A stretch of 64,000 bases of DNA from Actinomadura luteofluorescens (GTDB lineage Bacteria > Actinomycetota > Actinomycetes > Streptosporangiales > Streptosporangiaceae), in contig NZ_JACCBA010000001.1 of assembly GCF_013409365.1 (NCBI RefSeq), positions 3,162,001 through 3,226,000 of the forward strand, given 5' to 3'. The translations under genes and the position numbers were made by a program. Positions within the stretch are counted from its first letter, which is position 1; every line of letters starts with the position of its first letter. This document shows, piece after piece, positions 3,337 through 22,270 of the stretch. The notes under the pieces are model-generated. The model searched no databases and was not told where the DNA came from. It was given only the letters and a program-made list of their open reading frames with translations.

Positions 3337-5463
3337 ATGAGCGCACCTAGCCCGGCTCCCCCGAGGCCGCGGACACACCGCCTGGCCGGACTGATCGCCG
3401 GACGGCGCACGAAATGGGCCGTCCTGGCCCTGTGGGTCGTCCTGCTGGCCGCTCTCGGCCCCCTCGCCGGCAAGCTCGGCGACGTCGAGAAGAACGACGC
3501 CGCGTCCTGGCTGCCCGCCGGGGCCGAGTCCACCCGGGTCGTGGAGTTGCAGGAGCGGTTCCGCAAGGACGAGACGATGCTCGCCGTCATCGTCTACGAG
3601 CGGTCCGGCGGGATCACCGCGGCGGACAAGGCCAAGGCCGAGTCCGACGTGGCCGCCTTCCAGAAGCTGCCCGGAGCGCAGAAGGCCCAGGGGCCGTTCC
3701 CGTCCAAGGACGGCAAGGCTCTGCAGACCCTCGTGCCCCTGACGGACGAGGACCTCACGGCCGCCGTCGACCAGGCGCGCGACCTCGCCGAGCGCGGGCC
3801 CCCCGGACTGGCCTCGCACGTCACCGGCCCCGCAGGCGGCGGCGCCGACCAGTTCGAGGTCTTCCAGAGCCTGGACGGCTTCCTGCTCATGGCCGCCGGC
3901 CTCGTCGTCATCGTCCTGCTGCTGTTCATCTACCGCAGCCCCGTGCTGTGGTTCGTCCCCGTCCTGAGCGCCGTCTTCGCCCTGGGGCTCGCCCAGTCGA
4001 CCGTGTACCTGCTCGCCAAGTACGCGGACCTCACCGTCAACGGCCAGAGCGCCGGCATCCTGACCGTCCTCGTCTTCGGTGTCGCCACCGACTACGCGCT
4101 GCTGCTCGTCGCCCGCTACAGGGAAGAACTGCACCGGCACGAGGACCGGCACGAAGCCATGGCCTACGCGCTGCACCGCGCCGCGCCCGCCGTCATCGCC
4201 TCCGCCGCCACCGTGGCCGTCGGCCTGCTGTGCCTGCTGCTCGCCGACATGAACTCCACCGCAGGGATGGGCCCCGTGGCCGCCGCAGGCGTCCTCACCG
4301 CGCTCGCCGCCATGACGACCCTCCTGCCCGCCCTCCTGGTCATCTGCGGCCGCTGGCTGTTCTGGCCGCTCATCCCCCGCTACGACGCCAAGTACCTGGA
4401 GCCCGAGGCCTACGAGGCCGAGCACGGCGTCTGGAGCCGTGTGGCGGGGATGGTGGGCAAGCGCCCGCGCGCGCTCTGGGCCGTGACCATGCTCGGCCTC
4501 ATCGTCCTCACGCTCGGGCTGGGCTCGCTCAAGGCGGACGGCCTGTCGGACGCCGGCCAGTTCACCGGCAAGCCCGACTCGGTGAAGGGCTCGGAGGTCA
4601 TCGCACGGCACTACGCCGCCGGTTCCGGCTCCCCGGCCCTCGTCATCGGCAAGGCCCCCGCGTCCGACCAGCTCGCCCGGGCCGTGCGGGGGACGCCGGG
4701 CGTCGCCGAAGTCAGCGACCCCGTCACCGCCGGCGGCCTGGTCAAGTACGAGGCGACGCTGAAGGACGCCGCCGACAGCCAGGCCGCGCGCGCGACCATC
4801 GACCGGCTGCGGGACGCGGTGCACGCCGTCCCGTCCGCGGACGCCAAGGTCGGCGGCACGACCGCGACATACCTGGACATCAAGCGCGCCTCCACCCGCG
4901 ACAACAAGGTCATCATCCCGATCGTGCTGGCCGTGGTGCTGCTCATCCTCATCGCGCTGCTGCGCGCCGTCGTCGCGCCGCTGCTGATGATGGGCACCGT
5001 GGTGCTGTCGTTCCTCGCCTCGCTCGGCGCCTGCGCGGTCATCTTCGAGCACGTCTTCGGGTTCGAGGGCACCGACTCCGGATTCCCCCTGCTGGCCTTC
5101 ATCTTCCTGGTCGCGCTGGGGGTCGACTACAACATCTTCCTGATGCACCGCGTCCGGGAGGAGTCGCAGACCCTCGGCACCCGGCGCGGCATCCAGCGGG
5201 GCCTCACCGTCACCGGCGGTGTGATCACCTCGGCCGGGCTCGTGCTCGCGGCCACCTTCGCGTCCATGGTCACGCTGCCGCTGGTGTTCATGGTCGAGAT
5301 GGGCTTCGCGGTCGCGTTCGGCGTCCTGCTCGACACCCTCGTCGTCCGGTCGCTGCTGCTGCCCGCCCTGTCCTACGACATCGGGCGGCGGATCTGGACG
5401 CCGGGACGGCTCGCCAAGGAGGCGCCCGCCGCGCCGGCCAAGGTGCTGGACCCGGTCGGCTGA
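3337..5463 (+). CDS. MMPL-family RND transporter
   Basis: A 708-residue polytopic membrane protein of the MMPL branch of the RND superfamily, normally proton-driven exporters of lipids or small hydrophobic compounds. A first membrane segment lies near residues 27-46, followed by an extracytoplasmic loop, five clustered helices, a second loop and five more helices. The GVATDYALLLVARYREE block and its counterpart LGVDYNIFLMHRVREE are the duplicated signature around the proton-relay aspartates. ATG at 3337 is preferred over an upstream GTG at 3316 because it follows ggagagg. It is monocistronic, bounded by an operator-rich promoter and a 12-bp terminator. The substrate is unknown. Confidence 0.9.
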   Translation: MSAPSPAPPRPRTHRLAGLIAGRRTKWAVLALWVVLLAALGPLAGKLGDVEKNDAASWLPAGAESTRVVELQERFRKDETMLAVIVYERSGGITAADKAKAESDVAAFQKLPGAQKAQGPFPSKDGKALQTLVPLTDEDLTAAVDQARDLAERGPPGLASHVTGPAGGGADQFEVFQSLDGFLLMAAGLVVIVLLLFIYRSPVLWFVPVLSAVFALGLAQSTVYLLAKYADLTVNGQSAGILTVLVFGVATDYALLLVARYREELHRHEDRHEAMAYALHRAAPAVIASAATVAVGLLCLLLADMNSTAGMGPVAAAGVLTALAAMTTLLPALLVICGRWLFWPLIPRYDAKYLEPEAYEAEHGVWSRVAGMVGKRPRALWAVTMLGLIVLTLGLGSLKADGLSDAGQFTGKPDSVKGSEVIARHYAAGSGSPALVIGKAPASDQLARAVRGTPGVAEVSDPVTAGGLVKYEATLKDAADSQAARATIDRLRDAVHAVPSADAKVGGTTATYLDIKRASTRDNKVIIPIVLAVVLLILIALLRAVVAPLLMMGTVVLSFLASLGACAVIFEHVFGFEGTDSGFPLLAFIFLVALGVDYNIFLMHRVREESQTLGTRRGIQRGLTVTGGVITSAGLVLAATFASMVTLPLVFMVEMGFAVAFGVLLDTLVVRSLLLPALSYDIGRRIWTPGRLAKEAPAAPAKVLDPVG

Positions 5464-12017: not shown

Positions 12018-12716
12018 TCAGGGGCGGTCGAGACGGGGCTCTCTCGGCTCCAGCATGGGGACGAGGAAGCGGTTCGCCAGGGCGGCCAGCTGGGTTTCGT
12101 CGTCCAGGTCGATGATTTGGCTGGGGACCGCTAGGAGGGAGCCGGAGATGCGGACCATCATCTCGGCGACGAAGTCGGTGTCCAGGTCGCTCGACACGTT
12201 GCCGGCGCGCTGCTCGCGGCGGAGCTGGTCGGCGACGAAGCGGCGGACGGTGGCGAGGGTCCGGCCCCCGTCGCCGGTCAGGGACGGCAGGAGGAGGTCC
12301 GGTTCCGTGGCGATCAGGCCGCCGATCAGCGGGTTGCCCCGGATGGCGCGCAGCGAGCTCACGAAGCCGAGGACCACCCGGTCGGCGGCCGTCTCGGCCT
12401 GCTGGATGTCGACGAGGAACCGGTCGAAGTAGCGGCGGAACTCGCGCCGCACCACCTGCTCCACCAGGGCGTCCTTCGTGGCGAAGCGCCGGTAGACGGT
12501 GATCCGCGAGACGCCGGCCCGGCGGGCCACGTCGTCCATCGTGGAGCGCTGGATGCCCATCCGGCAGAACTGCGCGTAGGCGGCGTCGAGGACGCGCGAA
12601 CGGGTCTCGTCGGCCTCGTCCACCTCGTCGGCCTGTTCGACGGCCTCGACGTACACGCTCTCCAGCAACGATCCCGAGTCCGACGACGCCATGAGGAACG
12701 ACAGCACAGGTTCCAC
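12018..12716 (-). CDS. TetR-family regulator, likely controls lcp
   Basis: A 232-residue repressor-like protein. The helix-turn-helix lies near residues 37-85, with MDDVARRAGVSRITVYRRF as recognition region, followed by an all-helical ligand-binding domain. GTG at 12716 is chosen because gggagg lies 6 bases before it; a GTG at 12734 has no ribosome site. It is divergent from the latex-clearing protein gene across a 164-base gap holding three inverted repeats. TetR regulators adjacent to lcp are known in rubber-degrading actinobacteria such as Gordonia (LcpR), so local control of lcp and of itself is likely. The ligand may be an isoprenoid cleavage product; this is inference. Confidence 0.85.
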   Translation of the reverse strand: MEPVLSFLMASSDSGSLLESVYVEAVEQADEVDEADETRSRVLDAAYAQFCRMGIQRSTMDDVARRAGVSRITVYRRFATKDALVEQVVRREFRRYFDRFLVDIQQAETAADRVVLGFVSSLRAIRGNPLIGGLIATEPDLLLPSLTGDGGRTLATVRRFVADQLRREQRAGNVSSDLDTDFVAEMMVRISGSLLAVPSQIIDLDDETQLAALANRFLVPMLEPREPRLDRP

Positions 12717-12880
12717 GATGCCCTCCCGAGACACAGATTCTGCCCGAATCGTCCATGTACGTCACGAAGGGTCTTGTGACGGACGCCACGGTGTGCTCTC
12801 ATGATGCCAGATCCTGATACGCAGAAGCACGATGCGTTTCATCGTACCAGGAGTCGCCGTCGGCCCGAGGAGGGAAAGGC
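12717..12880. promoter_or_regulatory. divergent tetR/lcp promoter region with three inverted repeats
   Basis: Candidate operators: gattc-N5-gaatc (12736-12750); cgtcac...gtgacg (12760-12781), whose arms extend inward with one bulged base; and acgatg-N5-catcgt (12829-12845). The last lies 35 bases before the lcp start and the second is nearly central, so both genes could be repressed together. No unambiguous -10/-35 pair is visible. Confidence 0.55.
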
Positions 12881-14122
12881 ATGGAACAACCCAGCAGGCG
12901 CAACGTGCTGATGACGGGCGGGGTGCTCGGGGCGCTCGGGGCGCTGAGCGTCGCGACGCCCGCGCAGGCCCGGCCGCTGTGGACGTGGTCGCCCAAGGGA
13001 TCGGTCGTGGGCGCGGGCAAGGGCGTCGACCCGCGGTGGGTCTGGGACGAGGAGGCCGACCCGCTGGTCGCCTCGCTGATCGACCGGGGCGACGTCCCCA
13101 AGGTCAACATGCTGCTGAAGACCTGGACCAAGAACGGCCAGGCGCTGCCGGCGGGGCTGCCGGCGGATCTGAAGGCGTTCATCGAGAAGGCCCGGCAACT
13201 CCCGTCGTGGGCCGACCAGACGAAGCTCGCCACCGCGTACAAGTTCAACCAGAAGCGGGGCACCTACCTCGGCGTCAGCTACGGCTTCGCCAGCGGGATG
13301 ATGAGCACGGTCATCCCCCACGAGGCGCGCGCGGTCTACTACTCCAAGGGCGGCGCGGACATGAGGGACCGCATCACCAAGACCGCCAAGCTCGGCTACG
13401 ACATCGGCACCCGCAACGCCTTCCTTCCCGACGGCGAGATGATCGTCACCTGCGTCAAGACGCGGCTGGCGCACGCGGGCGTGCGCCACCTGCTGCCCCA
13501 GTCCCCGTACTGGACCAAGGTCGCCGACGAGCAGATCCCGATCAGCCAGGCGGACATGATGGTCACCTGGCACAGCCTGCCCACCACGGTCATGAAGCAG
13601 CTCACCAGGTGGAAGGTCCCGATCCCCGCCGACGAGTCCGCCGCGTTCCTGCACTCCTGGCAGTTGACCGCGCACATGCTGGGCATCCTGGACGAGTACA
13701 TCCCGGGCTCGTGGGACGAGGCGAACTCCCAGGCCGCGCAGGTCCTCGACCCGGTCCTCGCCCCCACCACCGAGGGCGTCAAGCTGGCCGACATCCTGCT
13801 CCACCTCGGCGTCACCATCGACGGCGGCATCCTCACCACGCACATCCTCGGCGCGCTCACCCGCTACATGCTGGGCGACGAGATCTGCGGCTGGCTGCAG
13901 ATCCCGCGCGAGCCGGTGTGGGACCCGGTCTTCGAGGCCTTCTGGCCGACGTTCGTCGCCATCAAGGAGGGCCTGCTCAAGATCACGGACGCTCCCCCCG
14001 GCCTGCTGCAGGTCTACTGGGCCTTCGACGAGATCATCCGCCTGGGGACGCTGCTCTTCCTGTCGGGGGGCAACCTCCCGATCAGCATCCAGATCCCCAC
14101 GGCCAACAACCCGAACTACTGA
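12881..14122 (+). CDS. lcp: latex-clearing protein, rubber (polyisoprene) oxygenase
   Basis: A 413-residue secreted b-type haem dioxygenase that cleaves cis-1,4-polyisoprene endolytically into oligo-isoprenoid keto-aldehydes. A twin-arginine signal (SRRNVL, then a hydrophobic run ending AQA at 30) fits export of a folded haem protein. The DUF2236/MpaB-like core keeps every residue shown to matter in Streptomyces sp. K30 Lcp at the same numbering: E148, R164, K167, T168 and the axial haem ligand H198. The conserved blocks SRAVYYSKGGADM-like, VRHLLPQ and HMLGI/DEYIP are also present. ATG at 12881 follows ggaggga. A divergent TetR gene and a 14-bp terminator flank it. No oxiAB genes are nearby. 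Confidence 0.92.
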   Translation: MEQPSRRNVLMTGGVLGALGALSVATPAQARPLWTWSPKGSVVGAGKGVDPRWVWDEEADPLVASLIDRGDVPKVNMLLKTWTKNGQALPAGLPADLKAFIEKARQLPSWADQTKLATAYKFNQKRGTYLGVSYGFASGMMSTVIPHEARAVYYSKGGADMRDRITKTAKLGYDIGTRNAFLPDGEMIVTCVKTRLAHAGVRHLLPQSPYWTKVADEQIPISQADMMVTWHSLPTTVMKQLTRWKVPIPADESAAFLHSWQLTAHMLGILDEYIPGSWDEANSQAAQVLDPVLAPTTEGVKLADILLHLGVTIDGGILTTHILGALTRYMLGDEICGWLQIPREPVWDPVFEAFWPTFVAIKEGLLKITDAPPGLLQVYWAFDEIIRLGTLLFLSGGNLPISIQIPTANNPNY

Positions 14123-19611: not shown

Positions 19612-20724
19612 ATGGCGCACGTAGTGATCGTCGGTGGGGGTTTCGCCGGGGTGTGGAGCGCGGCGGCGGCCGCACGGGTCCGGGGGACGCGGGACCTGCG
19701 GATCACGCTGATCGCACCCGGTGACGATCTCGTCCTGCGGCCCCGGCTGTACGAGCCGGAGCCCGAGCGGGCGACGGTCGCGCTGAAGCGGATCCTGGAG
19801 CCGGTCGGCGTCGAGCACATGCGCGCGGCCGTCCAGGACATCGACGTGGACGAGCGGACCGTCACCGCGGACGGGCGGAAGGTCGGGTACGACCGGCTCG
19901 TCCTTGCCGCGGGGAGCCGTCTCGTCCGGCCGGGGATTCCGGGTGCGGAGCGGATGTTCGACGTGGACACCCTCCCGGGCGCCCTGCGGCTGCGCGGCCA
20001 CCTGCGCGGCCGCGACGGCACGACGGTCGTGGTCGGCGCGGGCTTCGCCGGGCTGGAGATCGCCGCGGAGCTGGCCGGGCGCGGGCGGGTCGTGCTGGTC
20101 GAGAGGGCCGGGGAGATCGCCCCCGACCTCGGTCCCGGCCCGCGGCCGGTGATCGAGGTGGCGCTGGAGAGGCTGGGCGTCGAGTGCCGCCTCGGCACGA
20201 CGGTCACGGAGGTCACCGAGGGCGGCGCGATGCTGGCCGACGGCACCGCGATCCCGGCGGACGCCGTCGTGTGGACGGCGGGCCTGGAAGCGAACCCGCT
20301 CACGTCCCAGATCCCCGGGGAGCGCGACCACCTGGGCCGCCTGAAGGTCGGCGCGCACCTGCGCGCCCACGACGCCGTCTTCGCGGCCGGGGACGTCGCC
20401 GCCGCCCGCGCCGAGGAGGGGCGCCTGACGATGCAGAGCTGCCAGCACGCGACCCCGATGGGCAAGACGGCCGGGCACAACGCCGCGGCCGACCTCCTCG
20501 GCGTCCCGCTGATCGACTTCGCCCCGGCCCCCTACGTCACCGACGTCGACCTCGGCGCGGCCGGCGCCGTCTACACGCGCGGCTGGGACCGGCTCGTCGC
20601 GCTGCACGGCGCGGAGGGCAAGTGGGTCAAGCGCTGGATCATGGACAAGATCCACCCGCCGGTGGACGACGCCGGGACGATCCTCACCCACGCGGGCATG
20701 GTCACGACGCCGATCCCGTTCTGA
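19612..20724 (+). CDS. NADH dehydrogenase-like FAD/NAD(P)-dependent oxidoreductase
   Basis: A 370-residue two-dinucleotide-binding flavoprotein of the NDH-2/pyridine nucleotide-disulfide oxidoreductase superfamily. The FAD site GGGFAG is at residues 8-13, the NAD(P) site GAGFAGLEIA at 142-151 and the C-terminal FAD contact FAAGDVA near 260. It lacks the CxxxxC redox disulfide of classical reductases and has no membrane anchor, so it is closer to NDH-2/ferredoxin reductase-like enzymes. It is the probable target of the adjacent ECF41 sigma factor. ATG at 19612 follows gaggagacgg. Its 3' end overlaps the convergent MFS gene by 23 bases. Confidence 0.87.
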   Translation: MAHVVIVGGGFAGVWSAAAAARVRGTRDLRITLIAPGDDLVLRPRLYEPEPERATVALKRILEPVGVEHMRAAVQDIDVDERTVTADGRKVGYDRLVLAAGSRLVRPGIPGAERMFDVDTLPGALRLRGHLRGRDGTTVVVGAGFAGLEIAAELAGRGRVVLVERAGEIAPDLGPGPRPVIEVALERLGVECRLGTTVTEVTEGGAMLADGTAIPADAVVWTAGLEANPLTSQIPGERDHLGRLKVGAHLRAHDAVFAAGDVAAARAEEGRLTMQSCQHATPMGKTAGHNAAADLLGVPLIDFAPAPYVTDVDLGAAGAVYTRGWDRLVALHGAEGKWVKRWIMDKIHPPVDDAGTILTHAGMVTTPIPF

Positions 20725-22219
20725 GCCGCCGCCCGCAGCGGGCCAGCAGCACCAGCAGCAGGGCGGGCGCTACGAGCACGGCGGCGCGCAGGGTGGTCAG
20801 GTCGGCGAGCGCCCCGAGCACGAGCGGGGCGACGCCGATCGCCACCCCGGACGCGAGCGCGCACCGCGCCGCGGCCCACGCCGGCTCGGACGGCCGCGCG
20901 GCGAGCGCCTGCCCCAGGATCACCGGATACAGCAGCGCCACCCCGAGCCCGGTCACCACGAGCCCGGCGACCGCGACCGGCGCGGGCGACGCCCACAGCA
21001 CCACGAACCCCCCGATCCCGACGGCCGCCGCGAGGGCGAGCAGCCGGTCCGGCCGCCCCCCGCGCCGCACGACCGGCCCCGCCGCCGCCCGCCCGACGGC
21101 CATCCCGAGCACGAACCCCGCCGACAGCGTCGCCGCACCCCCCGCCCCCAGCCCCTTGACACTCCCAAGGAAGTCCGCCGCCCAGAAGACCAGACAGAAC
21201 TCCACCCCCACCGCCAACACGAGATCCCCCCACCGCCCCCAGAACCCCACCCCACCACCGACCTCCACACCCACCGACCCGGGAGCAGCACCGGCGGGAG
21301 CGGCGGCGCTGGAAGAGGCAGCGGTGGGAGCAGCACCACCGGGAACGGCACCACCGGAAGGGGTAGCGCCGGGAGCGGGACCACCGGGAACGGCACCACC
21401 GGGAGCGGTAGCGCCGGGAGCGGCACCGGCGGGAGCGGCAGCGCTGGCAGGGGCAGCGCTGGCAGGGGCAGCGCTGGCAGGGGCAGCGCTGGCAGGGGCA
21501 GCGCTGGCAGGGGCAGCGCTGGCAGGGGCAGCGCTGGCAGGGGCAGCGCTGGGAGAACCGGCGCTGGGAGAACCGGCGCTGGGAGAACCGGCGCTGGGAG
21601 AACTGGGGGTGGGAGGAGCGGGGGTTTGGGTGGGTTGGGCGGGGCGGTGGCGGGGTGGGCGGGTGAGGAAGATGAGGAGGATGGCGGCTGCCAGGAGGGG
21701 TGGGGTGGTGAAGGCGGGGCGCCAGCCGAGGCCGTGGGCCAGTGCGGCGCCGATGAGGATCGGGGAGAGGACGGACGCGGCGCTGGAGACCGCGTTGGCC
21801 TCGCCGATTTGGATCGTTCCATCTCCCCGGTGCGCGGCGCGCAGGGCCGCCGGGACGAGTTGGACGAGGCCCGCTCCGCCGAGGCCGAGGACCAGGGCGC
21901 CGGCGGCCGTTCCGAGGCGTCCGCCCGCGGAGGCCAGGAGGGCGGCGCCGCCGACGAGGGCGGTCAGGGCCGCCGGGATCGCGTAGCGCCCGAGCCGGGC
22001 CGCCAGGCGGTGCCCGACCAGACCAACGATCACCAGCCCGAGGGCGAAGGCGGACGGATAGAGGGCGGCCTCGGCGCGGGGCAGGCCGCGCTCCTCCCGC
22101 AGTTGGGGCAGGATCGCGCCGAGCGCGGTGAGCAGGTAGCCGAGGCATCCGAAGGCGGCGTAGAGCCCGAGTGTCTCCCCTGTCCGCCCGGTGTCCGGAC
22201 CCGTGTCGGCGGGCTTCAT
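20702..22219 (-). CDS. MFS transporter with repeat-encoded central loop
   Basis: A 505-residue major-facilitator transporter of the cyanate/CynX-like type: six hydrophobic segments in the first 195 residues (LRAAHRGDG loop and GWRPAF motif), six more in the last 190. Between the halves lies an unusual cytoplasmic loop of roughly 120 residues rich in Ala, Pro, Gly and Ser (GSPSA four times, APASA seven times). It is encoded by tandem 15-bp repeats whose length is likely to vary. ATG at 22219 follows ggggagg. It is divergent from a ROK regulator that may control it; the substrate is unknown. Confidence 0.85.
   Translation of the reverse strand: MKPADTGPDTGRTGETLGLYAAFGCLGYLLTALGAILPQLREERGLPRAEAALYPSAFALGLVIVGLVGHRLAARLGRYAIPAALTALVGGAALLASAGGRLGTAAGALVLGLGGAGLVQLVPAALRAAHRGDGTIQIGEANAVSSAASVLSPILIGAALAHGLGWRPAFTTPPLLAAAILLIFLTRPPRHRPAQPTQTPAPPTPSSPSAGSPSAGSPSAGSPSAAPASAAPASAAPASAAPASAAPASAAPASAAPASAAAPAGAAPGATAPGGAVPGGPAPGATPSGGAVPGGAAPTAASSSAAAPAGAAPGSVGVEVGGGVGFWGRWGDLVLAVGVEFCLVFWAADFLGSVKGLGAGGAATLSAGFVLGMAVGRAAAGPVVRRGGRPDRLLALAAAVGIGGFVVLWASPAPVAVAGLVVTGLGVALLYPVILGQALAARPSEPAWAAARCALASGVAIGVAPLVLGALADLTTLRAAVLVAPALLLVLLARCGRRLRTGSAS
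21441..21605. repeat. 15-bp tandem repeat array inside the MFS gene
   Basis: Eleven contiguous 15-bp units: seven copies beginning gcgctggcag (21441 to 21531) and four beginning gcgctgggag (21546 to 21591). Being a multiple of three they extend the protein loop in frame; looser versions continue on the lower-coordinate side to about 21290. Confidence 0.92.
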
Positions 22220-22270
22220 CGCGCCTCCCCTATTAAACTCGTAGGGCGAGGATAAGTCGGGCACGCCAGG

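Follow-up and report, generated by a model that had tools for sequence, protein, structure and literature searches.

The window, a 64,000-nt stretch of the Actinomadura luteofluorescens genome (one 9.62-Mb contig), carries a gene for a latex-clearing protein (lcp) that is transcribed away from a gene for a TetR-family regulator (lcpR). The following features were assigned.

12881..14122, plus strand: lcp, latex-clearing protein (rubber oxygenase), 413 aa; from homology to LcpK30 and PF09995
12018..12716, minus strand: lcpR, TetR-family regulator, probably of LcpR-VH2 type; from a TetR_N match and homologues facing lcp
12815..12849, plus strand: predicted LcpR operator, 35 bp, TGATACGCAGAAGCACGATGCGTTTCATCGTACCA, an imperfect dyad; from a 56-site matrix
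12775..12790, plus strand: CRP-like site TGTGACGGACGCCACG, 8/10 match to TGTGAN6TCACA; from TGTGN8CAC conservation
12774..12779, plus strand: candidate lcp -35 element, TTGTGA, overlapping the CRP-like site; from column conservation and inference
12797..12802, plus strand: candidate lcp -10 element, TCTCAT, preceded by a 17-base spacer; from column conservation and inference
12881..12973, plus strand: candidate Tat-type signal sequence of Lcp (SRRNVLM ... TPAQA); read from the translation

Both reading frames are real and lie where the original prediction had placed them. The ATG of lcp is preceded by a good ribosome site (GAGGAGGGAAAGGC). The longest ORF for lcpR begins with a GTG at 12734, giving a gap of 146 bases to lcp, while an alternative GTG at 12716 leaves 164 bases. 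Because this second GTG has GGGAGG in front of it and at least 15 homologous TetR ORFs begin at the equivalent position, the divergent order with a gap of 164 bases, as predicted, holds for the start at 12716. A GNAT acetyltransferase gene comes after lcp. Elsewhere in the window (20702-22264, minus strand) a frame that looks transporter-like by eye is interrupted by a long run of SAGSP/ASAAP-like repeats.

Family placement of the Lcp protein

The lcp product aligns almost end to end with the LcpK30 structure 5o1l (phmmer, E 9e-150, residues 4-411), with 227 of 408 residues identical (55.6%), and it matches PF09995 (DUF2236) with 49.7 bits. The five functional residues that had been named as shared with Streptomyces sp. 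K30 Lcp, E148, R164, K167, T168 and H198, are all kept at identical numbers. According to the LcpK30 work, His198 and Lys167 ligate the haem, and changes of Arg164, Thr168 or Glu148 abolish or strongly reduce activity (PMC5522427). A stretch of 13 residues that a review names as conserved in Lcp proteins, KTRLVHAAVRHLL (PMC8235351), appears as KTRLAHAGVRHLL in the window protein, with 11 of 13 residues identical. The N-terminus (SRRNVLM...TPAQA) resembles a Tat signal, its Pfam TAT_signal score of 14.5 bits lying below the cut-off of 22.7, and secretion by this route is likely. The closest relative listed is the Lcp of Actinomadura mexicana (95% identical).

The host genome contains 12 PF09995 matches, the window Lcp included. 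When used as a query, the window Lcp finds four proteins in this genome: itself, another Lcp with 77% identity, and two remote family members at 28% and 26%. The other eight PF09995 proteins were not found in that search. In a tree of 93 rows a branch supported at 100/100 sets these eight MpaB-type paralogues apart, and the window protein falls among the Lcps. Several distant rows of this tree have long branches and odd composition, the bootstrap is not settled and the inner order of the eight MpaB-type rows is unsure; the split between Lcp and MpaB-type proteins is nevertheless secure because of the score gap. The case against an Lcp, that the protein might be closer to MpaB-type DUF2236 oxygenases, thus failed, as it groups with LcpK30 and other Lcps, apart from the eight MpaB-type paralogues encoded in the host genome. 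By sequence, the protein encoded at 12881-14122 is a true Lcp, and to call the host a candidate polyisoprene degrader is a fair description.

The intergenic region and the predicted LcpR operator

The lcpR product matches TetR_N (PF00440) with 48.8 bits, and its homologues include proteins from Actinomadura mexicana (92% identical) and Gordonia tangerina (62.9%). A search of genome contigs gave 192 lcp-like places, and in 61 of the best 80 a TetR homologue (62-92% identical to the window TetR) faces lcp within 1.2 kb. The divergent layout is thus ordinary and a known arrangement; published accounts already describe the pair of TetR gene and lcp, a palindrome and a CRP regulator (PMC7413915, PMC8235351, PMC9108482). 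Of 65 genomes of the genus, 43 contain lcp (E 1e-80 or better; one match, in G063, is partial) and 36 a match to the TetR (E 1e-50 or better). Actinomadura stands in a review table with the entry "2, 2, 1" (PMC8235351), by our reading two species that carry two lcp genes.

The intergenic gaps of 55 loci (those passing a stricter first filter among the 61) were analyzed together with that of the window, and one 35-bp motif was found across all 56 gaps (consensus TGATACGCAGAAGCACTCTGTGTTTCATCGTATCA). For the window site at 12815-12849, the full 56-site matrix gives 54.3 bits. A second matrix, built from 30 loci that are not from the Thermomonosporaceae, the family of the host, gives the same site 51.2 bits and its reverse reading 28.7; the next other place in the window has 1.5 and the maximum in 300 shuffled upstream regions is 2.9. 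This cross-family matrix reaches at least 15 bits no farther than 300 bp from lcp in 68 of the best 80 of 192 loci, a count that is not independent since it includes 28 of the 30 training loci, all 30 of which are inside the 80. The remaining 12 loci fall below 15 bits (L017-L021, L026, L032-L034, L065, L080 and L092), so control of lcp by LcpR is not universal. The only match without mismatch in the host genome is the window site itself. The predicted 35-bp operator is, on these scores, conserved across families.

An adjacent lcpR was undetected in 19 of the best 80 of 192 loci, and in seven of these the operator still scores at lcp (L041, L046, L059, L060, which is cut by its contig end, L084, L089 and L090), so that gene and operator are separable.

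Palindromes taken from PMC7413915 were scored against the full 56-site matrix. Those of LcpR-VH2 reach 19.2 and 23.1 bits (on 29 and 33 overlapping columns, respectively), values attained by none of 500 shuffles in either case, and that of Actinoplanes sp. OR16 reaches 12.5 bits (attained by 2 of 500). The LcpRB site of S. coelicolor, TATGTTAATGAAAAATCACA, does not fit this matrix (-4.9 bits, attained by 455 of 500). The OR16 regulator, ACTI_59620, is reported to have bound a fragment from upstream of lcp1 that holds its palindrome (EMSA, PMC7413915). As the matrix recognises the VH2 palindromes and this binding precedent exists, the window TetR is probably of the LcpR-VH2 kind, so the window promoter would be an LcpR-type lcp promoter, known in kind.

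Upstream of the operator, which begins at 12815, lies a conserved block TTGTGA-N17-TCTCAT (12774-12802). TTGTG stands 41 bases before the operator in the window; other loci mostly have 28-44 bases and L056 has 21, and in L091 the block was not found. Because of this variation the operator position cannot be regarded as fixed. Overlapping the block, TGTGN8CAC occurs in 45 of the 56 gaps versus a mean of 0.84 in single-base shuffles; it is absent from 11 gaps, and the window site itself is imperfect (8/10). A CRP regulator of rubber degradation with the motif TGTGAN6TCACT has been described for Gordonia VH2 (PMC8235351). The conserved CRP-like element suggests a wider control of lcp, or the block could simply be part of the promoter.

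Three inverted repeats had been proposed for this gap. A search with arms of at least 8 nt returned one pair (12757-12765/12776-12784), and shorter repeats seen by eye, GATTC/GAATC near 12737 and ACGATG/CATCGT near 12832, are of a size expected by chance, the first not being kept as a repeat in the other gaps when these were inspected by eye. The proposal does not stand as three equal repeats; what remains of it are two elements conserved over the 56 loci, the operator and the CRP-like/-35 element, the gap showing no other palindrome of strong conservation.

A second lcp gene and other DUF2236 loci

A second full lcp gene (77% identical) is located at 376899-378137, 2.8 Mb from the window copy, and adjoins a gene of acetyl-CoA hydrolase/transferase type. 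When its promoter was scanned (L009, gene at 3900-5138), no LcpR operator was found. It holds instead the palindrome TATTGGCACAACGCCAATA, of the type TATTGGCN5GCCAATA. Control of LcpRB type was considered for this gene and rejected, as the palindrome is, judged by eye, unlike the LcpRB site. In 9 of the best 80 of 192 loci a palindrome of the TATTGGC type is found no farther than 400 bp upstream of lcp; these nine come from Actinomadura records without exception, and each is one of the 12 loci that lack the LcpR operator. Among 65 genomes of the genus the palindrome precedes an lcp in 12, of which six carry two lcp genes (the host, G000, and G007, G008, G027, G050 and G051) and six have a full lcp and are without LcpR (G010, G029, G030, G034, G056 and G060). 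The palindrome is present anywhere in 32 of the 65 genomes, and in 20 of these it lies away from any lcp, which argues against a dedicated lcp switch. Exact copies at G005:C1:406619-406637 and G025:C6:156236-156254 are situated about 100-150 bases before stretches that match a DUF2236 protein. A further TATTGGC copy in the host genome (L157) lies between frames that appear TetR-like and transporter-like by eye.

On a tree of 83 Lcp rows, the ten lcp genes with a TATTGGC palindrome need three changes of operator type, two of which are forced by well-supported branches; the three could be one gain and two losses. A tree in which the palindrome-bearing genes form one clade was rejected (log-likelihood lower by 165, p-AU 6e-7), the tested clade having been named from promoters, though the 93-row tree was known before the test. 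Hence, either operator types were switched at least twice or the genes exchanged parts of their coding sequences. A repeated change of operator type along the Lcp tree would be a mildly new point. That the lcp genes of Actinomadura have come repeatedly under two unrelated switches, with the copies of a two-copy strain answering to different signals and the second regulator perhaps also acting on other DUF2236 genes, is a tentative reading to which we give a little less than an even chance.

The only other operator-like place in the host genome (3812341-3812375, three mismatches; L002 2266-2300) precedes a DUF2236 gene. The adjacent protein is matched in 54 of 60 genus genomes, and 30 of these loci were scanned (L124-L153). 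The operator matrix exceeds 18 in 23 of them: 7 of the 8 whose genomes have no LcpR, and 16 of the 22 whose genomes have one. Since most LcpR-less loci keep the element, it is independent of LcpR, and the idea that LcpR regulates this other DUF2236 gene was dropped. Perhaps the element is the site of a paralogous TetR protein. At a separate locus (L001 708-2331) the layout of lcpR and lcp recurs, with a TetR paralogue of about 40% identity to the window TetR divergent to another DUF2236 gene. At a further one (L010 3551-5681), a gene for an Lcp-like DUF2236 protein shares 8 bases with a gene for a polyprenyl synthetase; no signal peptide is visible by eye in the Lcp-like protein, and the two may form a make-and-cleave pair for a polyprenyl product.

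Interpretation and comparison with known systems

We consider it very probable that the window contains an lcp-lcpR pair of the kind known from Gordonia polyisoprenivorans VH2 and Actinoplanes sp. OR16. Homology to Lcp, the active-site residues, the divergent gene order, the conserved operator and the match to the VH2 palindromes are observed; haem binding, cleavage, export, repression, an inducer and CRP action are what we infer from them. The protein would carry haem b, be exported through the Tat pathway and, outside the cell, cut poly(cis-1,4-isoprene) into oligo-isoprenoid keto-aldehydes. When substrate is lacking, LcpR would occupy the 35-bp operator, which follows closely on the likely lcp promoter, and keep lcp silent, perhaps along with its own gene, until an isoprenoid breakdown product releases it. 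Carbon status may enter through a CRP-type regulator that binds where the -35 and the CRP-like site overlap.

The proposal of a compact, self-contained unit for sensing and cleavage is not supported, in view of the unlinked second lcp under another palindrome, the CRP-like element and the search for an OxiB-like protein. The query for this search was the molybdopterin-binding protein that follows lcp in Nonomuraea cavernae (L057), termed OxiB-like from gene order and the domains of a related cluster member (L074), and it found no close relative in the host genome (best E 8e-7, 34% identity over about 110 residues). Other oxidases could carry out the OxiB-like step, and the later steps of rubber degradation must be encoded away from the window unit. 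Among the best 80 of 192 loci, a tandem second lcp cluster was found in 17 and a downstream cluster, its representative having molybdopterin-binding domains, in 24; such neighbour clusters are connected components and can mix frames.

The missing close relative of the OxiB-like query also bears on an alternative in which the protein is an Lcp by descent whose substrate is another isoprenoid, such as a polyprenyl compound of plants or microbes, in a host that does not grow on rubber. The spread of lcp in the genus (43 of the 65 genomes) may also be wider than a specialist for a rare polymer would lead one to expect. We nevertheless regard this alternative as unlikely, given the closeness to characterised Lcp with all five functional residues and an operator related to those of lcp genes for rubber degradation.

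Some TetR-family proteins activate. It is thus conceivable that the window TetR is an activator, or that it acts through a site other than 12815-12849, and the separability of lcpR and operator (7 of 19 loci) would agree with this; an activating case is named in the reference list of the Actinoplanes paper (PMC7413915). The operator, however, lies just downstream of the likely -10 element, which is the position of a repressor, and only the CRP-like element is otherwise strongly conserved in the gap, so that this possibility, too, appears improbable. Finally, a non-rubber MpaB-type DUF2236 oxygenase, for which the shared PF09995 domain and its 12 matches in the genome might speak, has practically no probability left and is already refuted by the near full-length LcpK30 match and by 8 of the 11 other family members being missed by the window Lcp and lying on the far side of the tree.

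With this pair of VH2/OR16 kind, the likely rubber oxygenases gain a member from Actinomadura, and the accepted picture of rubber degradation stays unchanged. The predicted LcpR operator is now sharply defined across families, and the differing promoters of the two lcp copies offer a route to the regulator of the second. If the reading of two switches is true, a two-copy strain such as the host would make two rubber oxygenases under different signals.

Among known systems, the Lcp of Streptomyces sp. K30 (PDB 5o1l, 5o1m) shares with the window Lcp its length, the Tat-like N-terminus and the numbering of the five residues, and differs in sequence to the extent given above. LcpRB of S. coelicolor A3(2) is likewise a TetR-family regulator of an lcp gene, but it is reported to have two helix-turn-helix domains (PMC8235351) and its palindrome misfits the matrix. 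The lcp1-lcp2-oxiB-oxiA cluster of Actinoplanes sp. OR16 also has an adjacent TetR-family regulator (ACTI_59620) and a partly matching palindrome (PMC7413915), whereas the window has one lcp, no oxiBA beside it and the second lcp unlinked. In Gordonia polyisoprenivorans VH2 (lcp1/lcp2, LcpR-VH2, CRP-VH2), a TetR gene upstream of lcp, related palindromes and a CRP motif are described (PMC7413915, PMC8235351), with palindromes that differ in sequence (19.2 and 23.1 bits versus 54.3 for the window site); the window regulator is likened to that of VH2 by its operator and gene order. The nearest counterparts are in Actinomadura mexicana, Actinomadura sp. K4S16 and WMMA1423, where the orthologous pair occurs (Lcp proteins 91-95% identical) and each record set also contains another lcp.
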